Source: Alphaproteobacteria bacterium (GTDB taxonomy: Bacteria; Pseudomonadota; Alphaproteobacteria; UBA6615). Taken from it: a stretch of DNA of 64,000 nucleotides. The stretch is from contig JBDXCV010000003.1 in assembly GCA_039980135.1 (NCBI GenBank), forward strand, positions 186,001-250,000, written 5' to 3'. The position numbers and the translations under genes were made by a program. Below the pieces are notes generated by a model. That model saw nothing but the letters and a program-made list of their open reading frames with translations, made no database searches and was not told the origin of the DNA. Positions 1,128 through 11,980 of this stretch are shown one piece after another (the first letter of the stretch is position 1; each line of letters begins with the position of its first letter).

Positions 1128-3389
1128 ATGACCGACGCAACTGATTCCCAGGACAACGATCCGGCCGAAGGCACCCCCTCGGGCGAGGTCGTGCGTGTAC
1201 GCCCGGACGACGCACCACCGCCGAAACCGGGGTCGGGCCGCGTGGACACATTGCTGCGTTGCCTGATCCGTCTGACGCTGCACTATGGCCGCCCTGTCGC
1301 CGCACCGGACATCCGCGCGACGGTGCCGATCCCCGACGCCGGCATGCATCCCGAATCCTTCAGCCGTGCGGCAATCCGGCTCGGCTATGCCGTGCGCGAG
1401 GTGCCGTTCGATCTGGCCGCTGCGGGTGAGCTGCCGGTTCCGTTCGTGCTGATCGGGCGCAACGGCGGCCCCTCCACGCTGGTGCTGTCGCGCCAGGGTG
1501 ACGAGCTTATCGTCTTCGACCCGCTGGCCGAACAGACCGTGCGCGTGAAGGCCGGCGGCGCGGTGAACCTTTCCGATCGTGCGATCCTGATCAAACCGGA
1601 AGACACGGTCACGCCACGCACGAACTGGCGATCCCTGATCGGCAAACGGGTCCGGGCCATCGCCTGGGAGCTCGTGCTCGCCTCGACCTTCATCAACCTG
1701 TTCGCGCTCGCCAGCCCGCTGTTCATGATGACCGTTTACAACAAGGTCATCGGCCAGCGCGCCGTCGATACGCTGCAGGTGCTCGTGATCGCCGTCATCA
1801 CGGTCGCCATGTTCGATGTCCTGCTTCGCGCGATCCGGGGGTACGTATCGAGCTACACGGGTGCGCGCCTGGATGCGCTGATCGGCTCGGAAGTGGTGCA
1901 CCATCTGGTGCATCTGCCCTACCAGCATTTCGAGCAGACACCGACCGGCGTCATTACCGAGCGGCTGCGCCAGCTCGATACCGTGCGCGCCTTCTTCTCC
2001 GGCCAGATGCCGATCACGCTCGTGGACATGGCCTTCGTCATCCTGTTTGTCGGCGCGCTGTTCTTCGTCAGCCCGCTCCTCGCCTTCCTCGTCGTTGCGG
2101 TGATGCCCGTCTTCGTCATTCTCTCGATCGTCTTTCACAAGCAACAGAAAGAACTGATCGAGCAGGACTTCGTCGCCCATGCCGCCAAGGCCTCCGCGCT
2201 CAACGAAACCATCAACAACGCCCTGACAATCAAGTCGCTCGGGCTCGAATCGGAAGTCGAGAACCGTTGGAGTCAGCGGCTCGCGCTCGGCGCCTGGACC
2301 GGCTTCAAGACCCAGAACCAATCCAACATCGTATCGGTCGTCGGCTCGCTCATGCAGCAGCTTGTCGGCTACGGCGTCGTCATCATCGGCGTGTTCCTGA
2401 TCCTCGACAACCAGCTGTCGATCGGCGCCCTGATCGCCGCAAATATTCTCGCCAGCCGCGCCATCGCGCCGGTCCGCCAGGTGGTGAGCGCCTGGCATCA
2501 GCTGCAGGAAGTTCGCGCGGCATTCACCCGCCTCGACGAGATCATGGAAGAGCCCCAGGACACCGCGCCCGGCTCCACCAGCCCGCTGCCCCCGATCCGC
2601 GGCAAGATCGACTTCGAGAATGTCAGTTTTCATTTCGCCGAAGGCCAGCCGCCCATCCTCGACCGGGTGAACCTCTCCGTGCCCCAGGGCGCCATCATCG
2701 GCATCGTCGGCCCGTCCGGGTCAGGCAAGTCGACCCTGGTAAAGATCCTGCAGGGGCTCTACACGCCCGATTCCGGCCGCGTGCTGATCGACGACACCGA
2801 CATCGCACACATGTCCCTTTCCGCCCTGCGCCAGCAGCTGGGCGTGGTCCCGCAGGACGTGCAATTGTTCGCCGGCACGGTCCGCGACAACATCTCGATC
2901 GGCATGCCGGTCAAGGATCCCATGCGGGTGGTCGCGGTGGCGCGCTTCGTTGGTGCCCATGACTTCATCCAGCGCCTGCCGAACGGCTACGACACGGTCC
3001 TCGGCGACCGCGGCAACGGCCTGTCCTCCGGCCAGCGCCAGCTCATCGCGCTGGCCCGCGCCCTGATCCGGAACCCGCGGCTGATCATTCTCGATGAGGC
3101 CACAAGTGCGCTCGATCTGGTGTCGGAAGATATGGCGATGCGCAATCTCCGGCGCGCCGCCGGCGACCGGACCATCGTCATGGTGACCCACCGCACCGCG
3201 CCGCTGGCGATCTGCGATCAGGTCACCTTCATGATGAACGGCCGCGTCGAACGCACCGGCACACCGGCCGAGATCATTCCCTATGCGCGCGAACGCATGG
3301 CCGAAGATCGGCGTCCGAACCAGCAGGAATCCCCGGGCAGAGATGCCGACTCCGACGGCCGGGGCACCACATCGGGAGAGACGGCCTGA
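1128..3389 (+). CDS. Type I secretion ABC exporter (LapB/PrtD-like permease/ATPase)
   Basis: Inner-membrane ATPase of a type I secretion system that drives an unfolded substrate through a HlyD adaptor and a TolC-type pore. The 753-residue protein has the usual order. Residues ~39-160 are a C39 peptidase-like domain; I see no catalytic Cys followed by Gly near its start, so it is probably the inactive substrate-docking kind seen in LapB and HlyB. Residues ~180-470 are a membrane domain with the family stretch PLFMMTVYNKVIGQ. The nucleotide-binding domain has Walker A GPSGSGKST (~528), signature LSSGQRQ (~632) and Walker B ILDEATSALD (~652). The stop overlaps the adaptor start by one base (TGATG), so the two are coupled. 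The outer-membrane partner and the substrate are not in the window. The ATG at 1128 has only a weak ribosome-binding site. Confidence 0.9.
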   Translation: MTDATDSQDNDPAEGTPSGEVVRVRPDDAPPPKPGSGRVDTLLRCLIRLTLHYGRPVAAPDIRATVPIPDAGMHPESFSRAAIRLGYAVREVPFDLAAAGELPVPFVLIGRNGGPSTLVLSRQGDELIVFDPLAEQTVRVKAGGAVNLSDRAILIKPEDTVTPRTNWRSLIGKRVRAIAWELVLASTFINLFALASPLFMMTVYNKVIGQRAVDTLQVLVIAVITVAMFDVLLRAIRGYVSSYTGARLDALIGSEVVHHLVHLPYQHFEQTPTGVITERLRQLDTVRAFFSGQMPITLVDMAFVILFVGALFFVSPLLAFLVVAVMPVFVILSIVFHKQQKELIEQDFVAHAAKASALNETINNALTIKSLGLESEVENRWSQRLALGAWTGFKTQNQSNIVSVVGSLMQQLVGYGVVIIGVFLILDNQLSIGALIAANILASRAIAPVRQVVSAWHQLQEVRAAFTRLDEIMEEPQDTAPGSTSPLPPIRGKIDFENVSFHFAEGQPPILDRVNLSVPQGAIIGIVGPSGSGKSTLVKILQGLYTPDSGRVLIDDTDIAHMSLSALRQQLGVVPQDVQLFAGTVRDNISIGMPVKDPMRVVAVARFVGAHDFIQRLPNGYDTVLGDRGNGLSSGQRQLIALARALIRNPRLIILDEATSALDLVSEDMAMRNLRRAAGDRTIVMVTHRTAPLAICDQVTFMMNGRVERTGTPAEIIPYARERMAEDRRPNQQESPGRDADSDGRGTTSGETA

Positions 3390-4807
3390 TGTTCGGGTTC
3401 GCACGACGCAAACGCGGCACCGAAGGCGAAGGCGCCACGACGCGCATGGCGCTCGAGGGGCGCGGACTCTCGGCCGTGATGACCCCGGCGCGCTACGCGG
3501 ACTTCCTGCCCGACGCACAGGCGATCGCGGCGCGCGAGCATTCGCCGCTGGCGCGCATCCTGCTGGTCGCGATTACCCTCCTCGCCGCGCTCGCGATCGG
3601 CTGGGCCGCGTTCGCCGAGGTGGAGAAAGTCACGACGGCGCAGGGCCGTGTCCGGCCCGACAGCCGGGTCAAGATCATCAATCACCCCGAGGGGGGCCGG
3701 ATACAGGAAATCTACGTCGTCGAAGGCCAGCGCGTGGTGGCCGGCGCGCCGCTCGTGGAATTCGATCCGGAGTTTCTCGACGAGGAAGTCGGCCGGTTGC
3801 GTGAGGAGTGGACCACCTTCGCCGCCCAGACCGCGCGGCTCGAAGCCGAATCCGTCCGGTCGAACGTGTTGATTTTCCCCGAAGACCTCGACGCTGCCGC
3901 CCCAAGCATACTCTCCAACCAGCGCGCCCTGTTCGACGCCCGACGCGCCGCTTTCGCCGCCAACCGCAGCGCGGCGGAGGACGCGGCCCGCCGCTTCGAA
4001 CGGGAAGTCGAGTCCCTGCGGGGCCAGCTCGTTTCGCTGAGCCAAACGGCCGAGATTCGCCGTGAGCAGGAATCCAGGACCCGAGATTCGACCGAGCAGG
4101 GATACTTCCCCCGCCTGAGATACCTGACCATCAAGAACGAGTTGGTCGAGGCGGAGAGCCAACTCGCGAGCCGGCAGAAGGAATTGGCGGCGCGCGAGGC
4201 GCAGCTCGCCGAGGCCCGCGGCCGGGTCAACCAGATCGAGGAGGATTACTTCTCGGATGTGCTGGCGCAGCTGGTCGAATCACGCCAGCAGCGCGACAGC
4301 CTGGCCCGGGAACTCGCCCAGACATCCTCCCAACAAAGCCGCCTGATCGTCAGGGCGCCGGTCGACGGCATCGTGCAGAATCTGACCGTTTCCAGCAGCG
4401 GACAATCGGTGAGCGACAACGATCCCCTGATGAATCTGATCCCCACCGGCGACACACTGATCATCGAGACACGGGTCGAGAACGACGATATCGGCTTCAT
4501 CAAGCTCGGCCAGGAGGCCAAGATCCGGGTCAACACCTATGACTTCGTGAAGTTCGGCACCCTTAACGGCACCGTGTCGCAGATCGCCGCCGACGCCACC
4601 GAAGATCCGGGCGGCCAGGGCGAAGTCTTCAACTATGTGGTGCTGGTCAAAACCGATCGCACCCATCTGGGCCCCACCCCGGCCGACCAGCCGGTCGTGC
4701 CCGGCATGCAGGTGACGGCCGATTTCAAGATCGGCGAGCGGACAATCCTCAGTTTCCTGACCGACAGGGTGGCGCAAACCACCAGCACGGCGTTGCGCGA
4801 GCGCTAG
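3389..4807 (+). CDS. Type I secretion membrane-fusion adaptor, HlyD family
   Basis: Periplasmic adaptor that bridges the ABC exporter to an outer-membrane TolC-type channel. The 472 residues show a short cytoplasmic N-terminus, one membrane helix at ~53-75 (ILLVAITLLAALAIGWAAF), a first lipoyl half around IINHPEGGRIQEIYV, a long Glu/Arg/Gln-rich coiled coil at ~130-310, the second lipoyl half (RAPVDGIVQNLTV) and a C-terminal beta-barrel region (LGQEAKIRVNTYDF), which is typical of HlyD/PrtE/LapC proteins. It starts in the stop codon of the exporter gene, so the pair form one operon. It ends 11 bases before the convergent PqqD-like gene, leaving no room for a third secretion gene. Confidence 0.92.
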   Translation: MFGFARRKRGTEGEGATTRMALEGRGLSAVMTPARYADFLPDAQAIAAREHSPLARILLVAITLLAALAIGWAAFAEVEKVTTAQGRVRPDSRVKIINHPEGGRIQEIYVVEGQRVVAGAPLVEFDPEFLDEEVGRLREEWTTFAAQTARLEAESVRSNVLIFPEDLDAAAPSILSNQRALFDARRAAFAANRSAAEDAARRFEREVESLRGQLVSLSQTAEIRREQESRTRDSTEQGYFPRLRYLTIKNELVEAESQLASRQKELAAREAQLAEARGRVNQIEEDYFSDVLAQLVESRQQRDSLARELAQTSSQQSRLIVRAPVDGIVQNLTVSSSGQSVSDNDPLMNLIPTGDTLIIETRVENDDIGFIKLGQEAKIRVNTYDFVKFGTLNGTVSQIAADATEDPGGQGEVFNYVVLVKTDRTHLGPTPADQPVVPGMQVTADFKIGERTILSFLTDRVAQTTSTALRER

Positions 4808-4818
4808 TTTCCGCAAAT

Positions 4819-5103
4819 CTACAAGAGCGCAACGATCAGTTCGCGCGCGCGCATATCCGCGACGGCATCGCGCACATCAGCTGACACCTTGTCCGCCGGC
4901 TCGTCGGGAAACGCCTCGCGATAGGCCGCCGCCGCGTCGGCAACGCCCGTGGGCGTTGCAAACAGGGTCCACAGGCCGCTGGTCACGGCATTCAGATAGA
5001 ACACTTCCCCGGTCCCCGGTTCGACCAGGAAGACATCGTCGTCCAGGGTCGTCTCGGTCACCGCCGGGTTGCGCACATACAAACTCTCGCGGCCACCGGC
5101 CAT
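4819..5103 (-). CDS. PqqD-like protein (possible peptide/protein-binding partner)
   Basis: A 94-residue protein of the PqqD superfamily, small winged-helix-like proteins that bind leader peptides or partner proteins for modifying enzymes. The family pattern is visible: a charged start, then DDDVFLVEPGTGEVFYLNAV followed by a segment with conserved Trp/Leu (TSGLWTLFATP) and a helical C-terminus. It follows the HprK-like kinase by six bases and is the last gene of a minus-strand operon. PqqD-like proteins next to HprK-related kinases are, as far as I recall, described as the HPr-rel-A arrangement of unknown function. No radical-SAM enzyme, PQQ gene or precursor peptide is visible nearby, so a role in PQQ synthesis is unlikely. 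Confidence 0.75.
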   Translation of the reverse strand: MAGGRESLYVRNPAVTETTLDDDVFLVEPGTGEVFYLNAVTSGLWTLFATPTGVADAAAAYREAFPDEPADKVSADVRDAVADMRARELIVALL

Positions 5104-5109
5104 GTCCAG

Positions 5110-6024
5110 TTATCCGTCGTTTCGGTTCGACAGCGCCGCCAGCAGCAGATCAGCTGCGGCGGCCCCGTCTCGGTAGTGCAGAATATAACCCTGACAGGCT
5201 TCTGCAAGCCGGCTCATGGCGGGCACGAGCGTCTCCGGTCCGGCCGGCGAGGTCGCCTCCTCGATCAGGGCGCGGGCGATATCCCCGGCCGGGGCCGACT
5301 CCAGACGGGGGTCGCCATCCAGACCGGGGTCGCGCCGGGGCAGAATCACGCAGCCGAGCGGCCGGATCTCGCCAAAGCCCAGCGCCTCATCATCTTCCAG
5401 ATGCAGATAGGCAATCGATTCATCGGTCAGATACCAGCGCGCCTCCACAAGCGCCGCCAGCTCCGGCCCGGGCGGGAGCGGGGTACGTGCCTTGGCGGCG
5501 AGCCCCAGTCCGGCCACCCGGTAGGGCGCCGCCCCGGTAGACAGCAGAATCCGATCATCGGCCAGGTGGCGGCAGCCGCGCGCGGCGAGGCGCAGGGCCA
5601 GGGTCGATTTTCCGGCCTCGGTCGGCCCGGCGAAAAGGACCGCCGCGCCCTCGAGTTCGACAGCTGACGCATGCAGGCTGCAAAACGCCATCGCGTGGGC
5701 GAGGATGCCGTCGATCAGCAATCCGGCCAGGGCGTTCGCGGCATTGTTGAAATCGGCCGCGACCGAGAAGCCGCCGTCCCAACTGACCGCCATGATGCGG
5801 AACTGCGTGCCCTCACGGGTCACATCTATATCGGCGGCGGGGATATCGACGACGTCCGCGGCCATCCGGGTCCAGAACGCCCAGCGTGGCAGAAAGACCA
5901 GCAGCGCCTCGCGAAACGCATCGGCGTCGACGCCGGGTCCGAGACGCACCGACAGATCGCGCCCGTAGCCCTTGAAGGTCAGGTGGGTATCTTCCGCAAC
6001 GATGGGCGTGTCTCCCGGCGTCAC
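5110..6024 (-). CDS. HprK-related serine kinase-like P-loop protein
   Basis: Related to the P-loop domain of HPr kinase/phosphorylase. With the GTG start at 6024 it has 304 residues. A mixed N-terminal part is followed by a Walker A loop GPTEAGKST at ~131-139 and then HLADDRILL at ~150, matching the paired-Asp motif of HprK enzymes. The substrate is unknown; there is no HPr gene in the window. The start is chosen because GTG at 6024 forms a GTGA overlap with the regA-type stop, indicating coupled translation. An in-frame ATG at 6114 would force a 94-base overlap and is less likely. The PqqD-like gene follows by six bases. The kinase is therefore likely made together with the RegBA pair, an unusual association. 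Confidence 0.75.
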   Translation of the reverse strand: MTPGDTPIVAEDTHLTFKGYGRDLSVRLGPGVDADAFREALLVFLPRWAFWTRMAADVVDIPAADIDVTREGTQFRIMAVSWDGGFSVAADFNNAANALAGLLIDGILAHAMAFCSLHASAVELEGAAVLFAGPTEAGKSTLALRLAARGCRHLADDRILLSTGAAPYRVAGLGLAAKARTPLPPGPELAALVEARWYLTDESIAYLHLEDDEALGFGEIRPLGCVILPRRDPGLDGDPRLESAPAGDIARALIEEATSPAGPETLVPAMSRLAEACQGYILHYRDGAAAADLLLAALSNRNDG

Positions 6025-6584
6025 TCGCGCGGCGCGTGTTTCGCCAGAATGCGCTGCAGCGTTCTTCGGTGCATCTTCAACCGCCGCGCCGTCTCCGAGA
6101 CGTTGCGGTCGCATTGTTCATACACCCTTTGAATATGCTCCCAGCGGACCCGGTCCGCCGACATCGGCCGGTCCGGCGGCGGTGGCAATGTGGCCCCGTC
6201 GGCCAACAGCGCCGCGGCGACCTGGTCCGCATCCGCGGGTTTGGGCAGATAATCCACCGCCCCGGCCTTCACCGCCGCCACCGCGGTCGCGATGTTGCCA
6301 TAGCCGGTCAGCACGATAATCCGGGCATCGGGCCGTACGCGGCGCAGGGCCTCGACCACCTCGAGTCCGCTGCCGTCTTCGAGGCGCAGGTCGATCACGG
6401 CATATTTGGGCGGGCGGGCCTCGACGGCACGAATGCCCTCGGCCACGGACTCCGCCACATCCGCCTGAAAACCGCGCCGGTCCATCGCCTTGGCCAGTTG
6501 CAGGCGGAGATTGACCTCGTCATCGACGATCAGCAGCGATGCATCGTCGGGTATCGGCAGCTCGTTCACATCCGCATCAACCAT
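6021..6584 (-). CDS. regA: RegA/ActR-type redox response regulator
   Basis: DNA-binding response regulator of the RegA/PrrA/ActR group, which controls energy and redox genes in alphaproteobacteria. The 187 residues comprise a receiver domain with acidic pocket D21-D22, phosphorylation site D65 (VIDLRLEDG) and K115 (LPKPAD), then a short Pro-rich linker (PPPPDRP at ~135) and the very conserved Fis-like helix-turn-helix (RWEHIQRVYEQCDRNVSETA, then RRLKMHRRTLQRIL). The HTH is close to invariant across this family, so the assignment is strong. It lies nine bases after the cognate kinase and overlaps the HprK-like gene by four bases. Confidence 0.93.
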   Translation of the reverse strand: MVDADVNELPIPDDASLLIVDDEVNLRLQLAKAMDRRGFQADVAESVAEGIRAVEARPPKYAVIDLRLEDGSGLEVVEALRRVRPDARIIVLTGYGNIATAVAAVKAGAVDYLPKPADADQVAAALLADGATLPPPPDRPMSADRVRWEHIQRVYEQCDRNVSETARRLKMHRRTLQRILAKHAPRE

Positions 6585-6593
6585 GATCGTCGA

Positions 6594-7934
6594 TTAACCC
6601 GTCCCCGCATCAACTTCAAGATCATCGCGCGGCCAAGTGATCGATACTTCCGCGCCATCCGTACGCGCCGCCGCACGCGCATTCGAGAATCGTATCCGGG
6701 CGCCGGTGCGTTCGAGCAGGGACTGGGCAATGAAGATACCAAGCCCCAGATGCCCCTGTCCGCGGTTGGAAATATAGGGCTCGCCGACGCGATCGAGAAC
6801 CGACGGCGGGAATCCCGGTCCGTCGTCACGCACCTCGACCCGTGCCTCACTCTCGTCCCACGAAATATCAACCGAGACATGTCCATCGGCGAACTGCACC
6901 GCGTTCTGGATCACATTGCCGAGCCCGTGCAGCAACTCGGGGCTTCGCGTGACCAACGGCTCGGCGCTGTCGTCGATGCCCGCCGCCACAAGATCGAGCA
7001 CGACATCCTCGTCCCTGTGCCGCGCGGCGGCCGCCGCCACGACATCCGAAAGCAGTATCCTGGCGAACGGATCATTGGTATCCGCCAGCTCGGGCGCGCG
7101 GCCCAGTTCGGCCAGGATGTCACGGCACCGCTCCGCCTCGGCCTGCAGAATACGCACATCGTCGGCATATTCGCTGTCGGGCGGAATTTCGCGGGTCAGT
7201 TCCTTGGCCGTCACCGCGATGGTCGCCAGGGGACTGCCGAGCTCATGGGCGGCGGCCGCCGCCAGCCCGCCCAGTGCCGAGAGCTGCTGTTCACGCGCCA
7301 GCGCCAGCTGGATCGCCGTCAGCGCATCCGACATGCGCCGTCCTTCACCCGCCACGCTGCCGATATAGCCGCCCAGGAAAAGGGTACCCACGATCACGGC
7401 GGTCCACAGCCCGCCGATATAGAACACCGGCAGCTCCAGCCCGCCCCCCGACCAGGGCAGCGGCAGATGATGAAAGGCGAGCATACTCGCGCAGCCGATC
7501 ACCAGGATGCTCAACAGCGCCGTGGCCGCCCGGCTCAGGGTGGTCGCGGAGACCGTCACGGGTCCAAGGAAAAGCAACGAGAACGGGTTGCCGAGCCCGC
7601 CGGTGAGATACAGAAGCACGGCCAGCTGCAGGATATCGAACGCGAGATAGGCAGCCGCTTCCCACTCGTTCAGGCGGCCGCGCACGGGACGGCGAAACGT
7701 CATCGCCACATTCAGCAACACCGACGCACCGATCGCCGCCAGCGCGGCATCGATCGGCAGCGACCAGTCCAGCCCGAACCGAACGATCAGCAAGGCTAAA
7801 AGTTGGCCGGCGATGGCAATCCAGCGAATCAGGACGAGCGTACGCAGGCGGACCTGCGCGGCAGACCGGTTCGGCCGGAGGTCCGCGAACGGCTTGCCGC
7901 CGGACAGCTGTGTGCGATCGTCGGTATGCGTCAT
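6594..7934 (-). CDS. regB: RegB/ActS-type redox sensor histidine kinase
   Basis: Membrane sensor kinase that phosphorylates the RegA-type regulator encoded nine bases downstream. The 446-residue protein has about six membrane helices in residues 30-195. It carries the quinone-sensing heptad GGLGNPF at 112-118, the H-box AAAHELGSPLATI with phospho-accepting His230, and the redox-active Cys270 (AERCRDIL) that forms an intermolecular disulfide in characterised RegB. The C-terminal ATPase domain has N, G1 and G2 boxes (NVIQNAVQFA, DDGPGFP, GHLGLGIFIA). All landmarks of the family are present, so it should sense both quinone pool and thiol redox state. The cupin gene ends 16 bases upstream on the same strand. 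Confidence 0.93.
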   Translation of the reverse strand: MTHTDDRTQLSGGKPFADLRPNRSAAQVRLRTLVLIRWIAIAGQLLALLIVRFGLDWSLPIDAALAAIGASVLLNVAMTFRRPVRGRLNEWEAAAYLAFDILQLAVLLYLTGGLGNPFSLLFLGPVTVSATTLSRAATALLSILVIGCASMLAFHHLPLPWSGGGLELPVFYIGGLWTAVIVGTLFLGGYIGSVAGEGRRMSDALTAIQLALAREQQLSALGGLAAAAAHELGSPLATIAVTAKELTREIPPDSEYADDVRILQAEAERCRDILAELGRAPELADTNDPFARILLSDVVAAAAARHRDEDVVLDLVAAGIDDSAEPLVTRSPELLHGLGNVIQNAVQFADGHVSVDISWDESEARVEVRDDGPGFPPSVLDRVGEPYISNRGQGHLGLGIFIAQSLLERTGARIRFSNARAAARTDGAEVSITWPRDDLEVDAGTG

Positions 7935-7950
7935 CGGAGCCGCAATGCGC

Positions 7951-8532
7951 CTAATCGCCCCGGGGAAACTTCGCCGCGAGCGCCGGGTCGAATTCCCCGT
8001 CGAGCAACACGAACATCACCTCACAGGCAGCACCGCTGCGATTGACCCAGGCATGGTTGGTGCCGCACTGGATCACCACATCGCCTGCCTTCAGTTCCAC
8101 CTCGTCATCGTCGATGACCATCGTGATCTCGCCCGACAGGATCAGCGCATAATCGATGGTCTCGGTGCGATGGCTCGCCGGGTGGTCGCCGCCGCGGCCA
8201 TAGGTCGAGGCTGGCTCGTTGCCCAATGCGCGGAAGGCGGCGCGGGCTTCCTCGACCGTGCGGTTGCGCACGTCTTCGGTCTCGGGTGCGAAATGATTGA
8301 TGCGAAACACGCTACCATTCTTCTGGGGCATCTGGCGGCGCGGCCCCAGGGTGGGTTCCTCGTGCCGCTGGACGATCTTCGCCGGGGTCTCGCCGGTCCG
8401 CCACAAATCCGTCGACCAGTCGTCGTCATTCTTCGGGTTGATGTGGACGAACGGTGCGGGGCCATCCTCGATCACGACCGCCTTGCCGTTGTCATCGTGG
8501 CCCATCACCACGCGCCGGATGGGTGTTGCCAT
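7951..8532 (-). CDS. Cupin-domain protein
   Basis: A 193-residue protein with a C-terminal single cupin fold: the first motif spans about HRTETIDYALILSGEITMVI and the second about GDVVIQCGTNHAWVNRSG, with His/Glu metal ligands in the usual places. The N-terminal ~90 residues are family-specific. Enzyme activity cannot be read from the sequence; related proteins are often annotated simply as cupin-domain proteins. The start at 8532 is preceded by a strong GGGAGGAAGG ribosome-binding site; a longer frame to 8688 lacks one. It is the first gene of a minus-strand run cupin-regB-regA-hprK-like-pqqD-like with gaps of 16, 9, -4 and 6 bases, and is divergent from the acetyltransferase pseudogene. Confidence 0.8.
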   Translation of the reverse strand: MATPIRRVVMGHDDNGKAVVIEDGPAPFVHINPKNDDDWSTDLWRTGETPAKIVQRHEEPTLGPRRQMPQKNGSVFRINHFAPETEDVRNRTVEEARAAFRALGNEPASTYGRGGDHPASHRTETIDYALILSGEITMVIDDDEVELKAGDVVIQCGTNHAWVNRSGAACEVMFVLLDGEFDPALAAKFPRGD

Positions 8533-8632: not shown

Positions 8633-9157
8633 ATGAATGCCATGATCGAGAATATGCAGCGCGGCGACTGGAAAGACGTTCGCGCCATCTATGGCGAGGG
8701 GCTCGCGACAGGGCTCGCTGCGTTCATGACCAGCCCGCCGAAATGGGGTACATGGAATGCGGCGCATCTGCACATCGGCCGCCTCGTCGCGCGCCGCGAC
8801 GACGGGCGTATCACGGGTTTCGCCGCCCTGTCGCCCGTCCCCGACACATGAGGGGCGGCCGGGGTCGCTGAGGTCAGCGTCTATGTCACCGACACCGCCC
8901 GCCGACAGGGTTTCGGCGCGTCCCTGCTCGCGCGGTTGATCGCCGTCTCCGAAGCCGATGGCTACTGGACGCTGCAGGGCCAGGTGATGGCGGCAAACAC
9001 CGCCAGCTGCGCCTTGCTGGCAGGTGCGGGCTTCCGCGAGGTCGGCCGGCGCGAACGCTACGGCCATATCGACGACGACTGGCGCGACGTGATCCTGTTC
9101 GAACGCCGCAGCGCGCGGGCGGGCGGCCCGGGTCTGCCGACGATAGCCTGCGGCTAG
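8633..9157 (+). pseudogene. GNAT acetyltransferase gene interrupted by in-frame TGA
   Basis: The frame from ATG 8633 (or 8642) encodes the first part of a phosphinothricin-acetyltransferase-like GNAT protein (MIENMQRGDWKDVRAIYGEG ... GFAALSPV) and stops at a TGA at 8849-8851. Reading on in the same frame gives the rest of the fold without interruption: GVAEVSVYV, then the acetyl-CoA loop RRQGFGASLLARLI, then the C-terminal part ending at 9157 (FREVGRRERYGHIDDDWRDV). No frameshift is needed, so only this one codon separates a broken gene from a normal ~174-residue protein. From memory of the family, the TGA falls where relatives commonly have Cys (SRCVY-GVAEV). The simplest reading is a recent nonsense mutation or a base-calling error. 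Selenocysteine is a remote alternative, treated in the findings. Confidence 0.75.
8852..8884 (+). other. Hairpin just downstream of in-frame TGA (SECIS-like, tentative)
   Basis: CGCTG (8866-8870) and CAGCG (8875-8879) form a perfect five-pair stem closed by an AGGT loop. The GGT of the loop begins 20 bases after the TGA, within the spacing seen for bacterial SECIS elements, and the loop resembles the AGGTC of E. coli fdhF. The bases also encode the conserved GVAEVSV segment, so the hairpin may be accidental. Confidence 0.2.
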
Positions 9158-11109: not shown

Positions 11110-11786
11110 TGACCACGCGCACACGCTGGTGGTGGGTCCGCCACGCCCCGGTTCGTTCGACCGGTGGGCGGATTTACGGCAACACCGATCCTCTTGCGGA
11201 CACAAACGACCCGCCCACCTATGCCGGATTGGCACGGATTCTCCCAAAAAATGCATTGCTTGTGACGTCACACCTGCAACGCACCCATCAGACGGCGGAC
11301 GCCATCAAGGCCGCGGGGCTGGATTTGCCCGACCCGCATATCGAGGAAGGCCTGGCGGAGCAGGATTTCGGCGCCTGGCAGGGCCGCAAGCGCGAGGAAG
11401 TCTATGCCGAACTGGACCCCAAGCACATGTTCTGGCTCGCCCCGGCCAACACCCGGGCCCCCGGCGGCGAGAGCTTCGCCGACCTGATGGTGCGCGTCAC
11501 CGGCGTGATCGAGCGGCTGAACGTCGAACATGCGGGCCGCGACATCGTCGCGGTCACCCATGGCGGTACCATCCGGGCCGCGATCGGGCACGCGCTCAAG
11601 CTCGACCCCGAGGCCGCACTCACCTGCCAGGTGGATAATTGCTCGCTCACCCGGATCGACCATTTCGGACCCAGCGAGAGCCACCCGGACGGCGCATGGG
11701 CAATTTTCCACATCAATCAGATCCCGACCCAGGACTCCACACTGGTTCCCGATCACACCGCCATGCTAGCCTTGGTGCAGCGCTGA
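11109..11786 (+). CDS. Histidine phosphatase, probable alpha-ribazole phosphatase (CobC-like)
   Basis: A 225-residue member of the phosphoglycerate-mutase-like histidine phosphatases. The catalytic motif is RHAPV near residue 12. Further family features are the HLQRTHQTADAI arginine region (~58), the GRKREEVYAEL segment with EQDFGAWQG before it, and the second catalytic His in VAVTHGGTIRAAIGHAL (~153). Placed directly after cobS, its likely job is removing the phosphate of alpha-ribazole 5'-phosphate or adenosylcobalamin phosphate. The ATG at 11109 overlaps the cobS stop by one base; a TTG at 11106 is less likely. Its stop codon lies within the 5' edge of the following cobalamin riboswitch. 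Confidence 0.82.
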   Translation: MTTRTRWWWVRHAPVRSTGGRIYGNTDPLADTNDPPTYAGLARILPKNALLVTSHLQRTHQTADAIKAAGLDLPDPHIEEGLAEQDFGAWQGRKREEVYAELDPKHMFWLAPANTRAPGGESFADLMVRVTGVIERLNVEHAGRDIVAVTHGGTIRAAIGHALKLDPEAALTCQVDNCSLTRIDHFGPSESHPDGAWAIFHINQIPTQDSTLVPDHTAMLALVQR

Positions 11787-11935
11787 AACAGGGAAGTCCG
11801 GTGCGGAGCCATGCGGTTCCAAGACCGGCGCTGCCCCCGCAACTGTAACGGTCAGGCCGTGCGCAACACCCACTGGCGAACGATCCGCCGGGAAGGATGC
11901 GCGCGGGCCGTCGATCCGGAGCCAGGAGACCTCTT
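11771..11935 (+). ncRNA. Cobalamin riboswitch (AdoCbl type)
   Basis: The conserved blocks of the cobalamin riboswitch are all present in order: AGGGAAGTCCGGTG (11791-11804), the core CTGCCCCCGCAACTGTAA (11831-11848), CCACTGG (11869-11875), the GGGAAGGATGCG arm (11890-11901), and the B12 box GCCAGGAGACCT at 11921-11932. It ends about 45 bases before the cobU GTG start. The stretch between holds CCTC after the B12 box and GGAGGAGG ahead of cobU, which could pair and hide the ribosome-binding site, so translational repression by adenosylcobalamin is likely. It should control cobU-cobW-cobN-cobO-cobQ. No other copy is visible in the window. Confidence 0.95.
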
Positions 11936-11980
11936 CGGCGCGCAACATCCGCGCATACCCTCGGGAGGAGGAACCGCGCC

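Follow-up and report, generated by a model that had tools for sequence, protein, structure and literature searches.

We analyzed a 64,000-nucleotide window of an alphaproteobacterial genome of 3.76 Mb (G000:C3:186001-250000), concentrating on an operon in which an HprK-like kinase (K) and a PqqD-like protein (B1) follow the redox regulators RegB and RegA. Five genes lie in a row on the minus strand, listed here from the front of the operon. RRE denotes a recognition element for ribosomally synthesized and post-translationally modified peptides (RiPPs).

7951..8532, minus strand: protein with a cupin domain, first in the operon (PF07883, 39.5 bits, cut-off 27.2)
6594..7934, minus strand: RegB/PrrB/ActS redox histidine kinase (NF033792, 521.9 bits, cut-off 350)
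6021..6584, minus strand: RegA/ActR/PrrA redox response regulator (NF033791, 296.9 bits, cut-off 250)
5110..6024, minus strand: K, HprK-like kinase of 304 amino acids with a GTG start, P-loop GPTEAGKS, ADDR and a PEPCK/HprK fold
4819..5103, minus strand: B1, PqqD-like RRE of 94 amino acids (PF05402, 39.5 bits, cut-off 23.4)

The gene order, strand and spacing, as given in a first-pass annotation of this DNA, were reproduced from the sequence. The gaps are exactly 16, 9, -4 and 6 bases, and the GTG start codon of K sits inside the regA stop (GTGA), creating a four-base overlap. An in-frame upstream ATG would extend K to 334 amino acids, but the GTG inside the regA stop is common to G002 and G004 as well. 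Both regulators exceed the curated equivalog cut-offs and belong to the RegBA/ActSR/PrrBA family. The RegB sequence contains the stretch GGLGNPF and, within AERCRDIL, a cysteine; we take both to have roles in RegB.

The intact P-loop and paired aspartates reported for K in the first-pass annotation are present. The AlphaFold model of K (mean predicted local distance difference test score, pLDDT, 90.3) aligned with PEPCK over 268 residues (Z 15.0, 4.7 A) and with HprK 1ko7 over 133 residues (Z 14.1, 2.4 A), both with VIA-align. K thus shares the PEPCK-like P-loop fold and HprK core of HPr kinase/phosphorylase and the HprK-related kinases A and B, whereas its scores lie far under the curated cut-offs of these families (TIGR00679, 27.3, cut-off 240; TIGR04352, 36.1, cut-off 200; TIGR04355, 33.8, cut-off 200). 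The score against PF07475 was also below the cut-off (27.5 versus 33.3 bits). HPr-rel-A, presumably the name of the system linked with HprK-related kinase A, and SynChlorMet were both rejected because the NCBIfam scores were far under the cut-offs. We also rejected HPr as the substrate of K, since the single HPr match of the genome (C3:111237) and a probable canonical HprK (C3:113166) sit together approximately 78-80 kb from K, in agreement with the earlier remark that no HPr gene is near.

A profile of the K family separated it from other HprK-like proteins. The 46 family members scored at least 142 bits, which holds by construction for the 13 included in the profile. Scores of 31-48 bits were reached by four probable canonical HprK proteins, and of 44.7 and 54.0 bits by two HprK matches in lasso-like clusters, "canonical" and "lasso-like" being labels assigned by eye. 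His118, Lys139, Asp156 and Asp157 of K are invariant in an alignment of 13 sequences; mutations have identified the His-Lys-Asp-Asp set as essential in lasso-tailoring kinases, as described in PMC9266682. In four other genomes, K and B1 are naturally fused into a single protein.

L033 8550-9812: HprK-like kinase/PqqD-like fusion in G038
L102 9721-10926: fusion in G181
L112 9230-10534: fusion in G338
L104 10051-11244: fusion in G249

As a separate observation, in G021 (L036 7297-8211) and G020 (L038), relatives from another genus, the 5' part of K runs in frame into a sequence that by eye resembles the end of an FkbM methyltransferase, most clearly in G021. It looks as if B1, half of K and the exopolysaccharide region had been lost in a deletion.

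B1 belongs to the PqqD-type RRE domain by its PF05402 score and by its fold. Sequence-profile searches of the PDB matched TbiB1 (4.2e-7) and 9x8z, which is LppB (8.6e-4). The AlphaFold model (mean pLDDT 85.4) was closest in Foldseek to TbiB1 with leader peptides (5v1v and 5v1u) and to another lasso B1 with its leader (6jx3); the template modelling (TM) scores against 5v1v were 0.76/0.81. PMC13381572 describes 9X8Z as LppB with its leader, and residues D70 and N33 of LppB as fixing the Tyr and Pro of the leader motif YxxP. D76 and N38 of B1 align with these two residues. D76 is kept in all 12 B1 rows, and the position of N38 holds Asn in five, Asp in six and Glu in one, the B1 of the window having Asn. 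The whole genome contains one PqqD-family gene, and since this gene is closest to the lasso B1 proteins, a role in pyrroloquinoline quinone biosynthesis was rejected on the basis of the PqqD protein alone.

Many K loci in other genomes of the class have a short gene adjoining K, here called A. A model was built from 12 of its peptides, all found near K in 10 genomes, which have RR, L, LG, Y and P columns in common when aligned. Searched irrespective of K, the genome of the window gave one match (C3:153542-153739, E 1.1e-16), located outside the window and 37.6 kb from K. All 44 A peptides, by motifs partly built into the model, contain RR..L..LG, YxxPx[LIVAFY] and AxA or AxS, with at least one Ser or Thr behind the site. 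As a reading of motifs, the RR and AxA suggest a signal of the twin-arginine translocation (Tat) type. The leader from the genome of the window reads YAAPTIVHLDRSANA, and its cleavage region is ANA followed by the tail KVLPSPCPPPGQGQGKGKGC, which holds Ser. Cys is found in 29 of the 44 tails, and [ST]-x before the first Cys in 25 of these 29 (by eye); the other tails have a high content of Ser, Gly, Arg, Lys or Pro. Across seven A peptides tested, no Pfam or NCBIfam family scored above its cut-off. Weak matches were obtained to a TAT-target model for formate dehydrogenase (15.5, cut-off 48.45) and to HxsA4 (23.1 bits, cut-off 55). The genes of the window's operon are tightly packed, and no precursor was seen among them; a 62-aa open reading frame behind PqqD in G051 (L032) has by eye no A-like leader.

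Directly 3' of A in the genome of the window, and outside the window, lies a gene for a TPR plus methyltransferase protein (L153 9431-10510), whose relatives appear in the neighbourhood set under 10 genome labels. In G039, a TPR protein resembles a prolyl hydroxylase by eye (L035 1677-2765). Both are possible further tailoring enzymes.

The distribution of K and A was surveyed in 385 genomes of the class. K was searched with a profile of eight kinases and counted at E 1e-20. Matches to A at E 0.001 were found in 41 genomes, 12 of which have two or three, and A was counted in the 35 genomes with a best match below 1e-8, a limit set after the hits were known (weakest kept 8.3e-10 in G144, strongest dropped 1.4e-5 in G254). 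Among the six genomes dropped (G116, G149, G211, G222, G254 and G368), the match falls in a frame of 395-492 aa in three and of 74-87 aa in the other three, the latter possibly real distant members. Candidates scored per genome were limited to six for K and 15 for A, and absences are therefore no proof. With these settings, K was present in 35 genomes, A in 35 and both in 33, compared to approximately 3 expected if they were independent. When the 10 genomes that supplied the model were left out, A was found in 23 of 25 K genomes. The carriers of K belong to 24 of 276 genera and 17 family codes, and K is accompanied by A in 16 of these codes. Close to the window, among 60 genomes including its own, K was strong in three others of the genus (G002, G004 and G006) and two more of the family (G022 and G020). 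The four discordant genomes, G126 and G208 with K but not A and G011 and G136 with A but not K, are all without B1; these exceptions fit the pattern.

The distance between the two genes varies. In 18 of the 33 genomes with both, A is at most 1.5 kb from K, while it is 25-43 kb away in eight (G238, G002, G109, G231, G000, G320, G051 and G397), 119 kb away in G219 and on another contig in six. In the genome of the window, the stretch from A to K holds polysaccharide genes, with Wzz/tyrosine kinase, polysaccharide export and BBP2 barrel proteins, as well as a nucleotidyltransferase gene, N.

G000:C3:172338-172952, outside the window, between A and K: N, PF14907 nucleotidyltransferase (92.9 bits, cut-off 31.2)

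N was identified in 31 of the 35 K genomes as compared to 44 of the 350 others, and lies at most 21 kb from K in 20 of the 30 genomes with K, A and N. PsmN is described in PMC8498205 and PMC9266682 as needed for the addition of one or two hexoses to the phosphorylated Ser of pseudomycoidin, nucleotidyl transfer not being excluded. Enzymes of the B1, K and N types, a YxxP-like leader and the His-Lys-Asp-Asp kinase set are all shared with the phosphorylated lasso peptides (paeninodin, pseudomycoidin and SyanA of Sphingobium yanoikuyae). The lasso B2 protease family (PF13471) is, in contrast, without a match at E 1e-6 in the genome of the window and occurs in 4 of the 35 K genomes versus 28 of the 350 others. 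No gene in the region examined passes the lasso cyclase model NF033535: the one gene scored, an asparagine-synthase-like gene in the A region, reached 148.6 (cut-off 525) and passes TIGR01536 instead (355.3, cut-off 267.1). The precursor of this genome also differs from the lasso precursors in having no C-terminal Ser, and the HprK proteins of lasso-like clusters fall well outside the K family in the profile comparison above.

The closest parallel is provided by the "linear polyphosphorylated peptides" (LPP; LppA, K, B, S, D and N) reported in 2026 (PMC13381572). According to that report, Ser3 of the core receives several phosphates from LppK, and the YxxP leader is bound by LppB. Cleavage is by an SpI-like (archaeal-type) signal peptidase, LppS; LppD is an MsbA-like exporter, and a nucleoside triphosphate (NTP) transferase is part of the conserved gene set. 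The same report calls LPPs and paeninodins restricted to Bacillota and leaves the biological role of LPPs open. Lasso-type peptide kinases are known outside Bacillota, as described for SyanK of the proteobacterium S. yanoikuyae. The system studied here has in common with LPPs a YxxP precursor with a variable tail (all 44 A peptides, with the same reservation as above), a discrete RRE with Asn and Asp contacts, an HprK-like kinase with intact catalytic residues, an NTP transferase gene (here PF14907) and a position in polysaccharide loci. A macrolactam cyclase, which LPPs lack, may be missing here too, the one gene scored, in the A region, having stayed below the lasso cyclase cut-off. The system differs from LPPs in belonging to another phylum, in a Tat-like leader with AxA but without HQxIxFETxxS, and in a K-B1 pair that resides in a RegBA operon, 37.6 kb from A. 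The full LPP leader motif, YxxPxVLxHQxIxFETxxS, is not matched by the leader from the genome of the window, and we therefore describe the system as working like an LPP system without classifying it as one.

Based on these comparisons, we propose, with a probability of roughly 0.72, an LPP-like peptide system outside Bacillota that uses no cyclase, in which K is the kinase that modifies the peptide and B1 the protein that binds its leader. In this proposal the locus is split around an exopolysaccharide cluster, with A, N and K-B1 spread over approximately 38 kb and with K and B1 in the RegBA operon. The leader of A carries RR..L..LG, YxxPx[hydrophobic] and the AxA site, and a short Ser-bearing tail follows. 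B1 would grip YxxP and present A to K, which would take phosphate from a nucleotide and attach it to a Ser of the core, most likely that in PSPC. N may next add a sugar or nucleotide onto that phosphate. The peptide would be exported, possibly via Tat as the RR motif would allow, and the leader cut at AxA. That K and regA overlap suggests co-expression of the modification step with the redox regulators.

Several observations weigh against this proposal. In the genome of the window, A lies outside the K-B1 operon, has none of the rest of the LPP motif (HQxIxFETxxS) and has no C-terminal Ser, the site on which lasso kinases act; the A tails in general are highly diverse. The universality of RR and YxxP is partly by construction, as both are in the search model, and the Fisher p value for the co-occurrence of K and A (6e-43) takes the genomes as independent and depends on cut-offs set after the hits were seen. 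B1 was unseen in 8 of the 45 K loci compared (G120, G228, G317, G394, G320, G126, G208 and the second K locus of G039). PF13471 is present in 20 of the 44 genomes that have N but not K, so that N alone is no mark of an LPP-like system and points as much to lasso systems. G011, G020 and G021 keep A while K was not found, truncated or chimeric, which suggests that A may have another use; the last Cys of A is lost in G021 and G011 and retained in G020. Finally, RegBA may be an old neighbour of K rather than its regulator.

The retention of A in relatives with a damaged K is also what would be expected if A were a small exported protein that is never modified, and if K, B1, N and A occurred together solely as parts of one inherited exopolysaccharide superlocus. 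The distance of 25-43 kb between A and K in eight genomes, with polysaccharide genes between them in the genome of the window, agrees with this explanation. We nevertheless consider it unlikely, because A is within 1.5 kb of K in more than half of the genomes with both (18 of 33), because 12 of the 41 genomes with any match have two or three, and because a YxxP leader is what B1-type proteins bind.

The neighbourhood of K was compared in a set of 45 loci from the class survey and a scan for named records; K, B1, A, RegA and RegB were placed by profile, and genes in relatives were called with a simple script of our own. RegA is immediately before K on the same strand in 16 of the 45 loci (G000, G002, G004, G006, G022, G051, G231, G320, G397, G126 and six named records including Tistlia consotensis) and within 10 kb of K in 8 further loci. 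The locus of T. consotensis (L058), a cultured carrier, has K, B1 and RegBA, with no A in the 20 kb scanned there. The arrangement is thus not unique to this strain. In a tree of 46 K proteins (quick search, support from the Shimodaira-Hasegawa-like approximate likelihood ratio test, SH-aLRT, alone with no bootstrap, three long branches), one side has 14 rows in which the stretches examined (one cut by a contig edge) contain no RegBA and A is at most 1.5 kb from K in every case. The other side has 32 rows, comprising all 24 RegBA-linked rows, six without RegBA and two at contig edges. This distribution suggests that the RegBA linkage is old in one part of the K family and dispensable for the family as a whole.

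These data also bear on the explanation that K serves redox signalling, by phosphorylating RegA, RegB or another protein of the operon with B1 as an adaptor. The four-base overlap, the 16 loci with RegA directly before K and the genome G126, which retains RegBA-K but has neither A nor B1, would all agree with such a role. It is made distinctly improbable by the 14-row clade in which A stays next to K while RegBA is not nearby, by the co-occurrence of K with A and N, and by the resemblance of B1 to leader-peptide binders; no evidence of signalling by K or B1 was found in the genomes and loci compared. For the LPP-like system, the same clade makes it more likely that RegBA regulates K and B1 than that it takes part in the chemistry, and the overlap and shared strand point to a possible redox control of K-B1. 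The first-pass annotation had proposed a redox-linked protein modification or signalling unit. The conserved RegBA/HprK-like/PqqD-like unit and its probable role in modification are retained here. In place of a signalling protein or HPr, however, the likely substrate is now a leader peptide 37.6 kb away, and RiPP tailoring systems emerge as the closest relatives.

A lasso-peptide cluster that is cryptic or incomplete, suggested by the YxxP leader and the B1-, K- and N-type genes as in the paeninodin and pseudomycoidin clusters, is highly improbable given the distribution of PF13471 (no match in this genome, 4 of 35 K genomes) and the asparagine-synthase-like gene that scores 148.6 against the lasso cyclase cut-off of 525 and passes TIGR01536.

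Downstream of B1, the operon faces a convergent type I secretion pair. Its HlyD gene stops at 4807, which confirmed the distance of 11 bases from the B1 stop given earlier.

1128..3389, plus strand: type I secretion ABC transporter, LssB-like (TIGR03375, 579.7 bits, below the cut-off of 693.1)
3389..4807, plus strand: HlyD-type adaptor of the type I secretion pair (TIGR01843, 346.7 bits, cut-off 208.65)

A convergent HlyD gene is located downstream of B1 in 11 of the 45 loci, with two open reading frames between them in G051, and tblastn partly detected the convergence in G002 and G006. A gene for a LapG-like cysteine protease lies in the same region, left of the window (L045 1646-2062, G000:C3; PF06035, 64.1 bits, cut-off 27; NF045674, 92.8, below the cut-off of 320). 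The secretion pair is kept nearby, but the LapG-like gene hints at an adhesin substrate, and the pair was set aside as the exporter of A. At the other end of the operon, the cupin gene is peripheral: it was recognized near regB only in this genome (G000) and its close relatives G002, G004, G006 and G020, in G004 with intervening genes.

Two further features of the window were recorded. At 8633-9157 on the plus strand, a GNAT gene with phosphinothricin-acetyltransferase-like relatives in the PDB contains an in-frame TGA at 8849-8851 (SPVPDT, the TGA codon, then GAAGVAEVSVYV). TGA occupies the same codon in all eight genomes compared, including this one, and selA is over the cut-off in all nine genomes of the family searched, likewise including this one; the G021 gene has a second stop. 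Identical third codon positions numbered 6 of 14 just after the TGA, as compared to 2 of 20 before it and 0 of 20 further on. The gene likely encodes a selenocysteine protein. Among the matches listed in the selenoprotein literature, no title concerned a selenium-containing acetyltransferase. A cobalamin riboswitch (RF00174, 76.9 bits, gathering threshold 31.5) is located at 11751-11949 on the plus strand among cob-like genes.

We found no report of this K-B1-A system in Alphaproteobacteria among the openly licensed papers searched, judging by search listings and text passages. The gene logic of LPPs recurs in 33 of the 385 genomes, from 16 family codes, and in the genome of the window it is once more located among genes for polysaccharides. 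This suggests a wider connection of surface polysaccharides with peptide phosphorylation of the HprK-like type. One tentative and rather doubtful extension is that class-wide secreted phospho- or phosphoglyco-peptides, modified only in a certain redox state sensed by RegBA, are covalently built into the exopolysaccharide matrix or anchor it. In this scenario K would prime Ser or Thr, N would place the first sugar or nucleotide, and the polysaccharide machinery would extend or capture the product; if true, a ribosomal peptide would be the redox-gated primer of a bacterial polysaccharide. More immediately, the analysis provides a probable role for orphan HprK-like/PqqD-like pairs, names candidate precursors, and identifies RegBA as a candidate cue for the timing of the modification.

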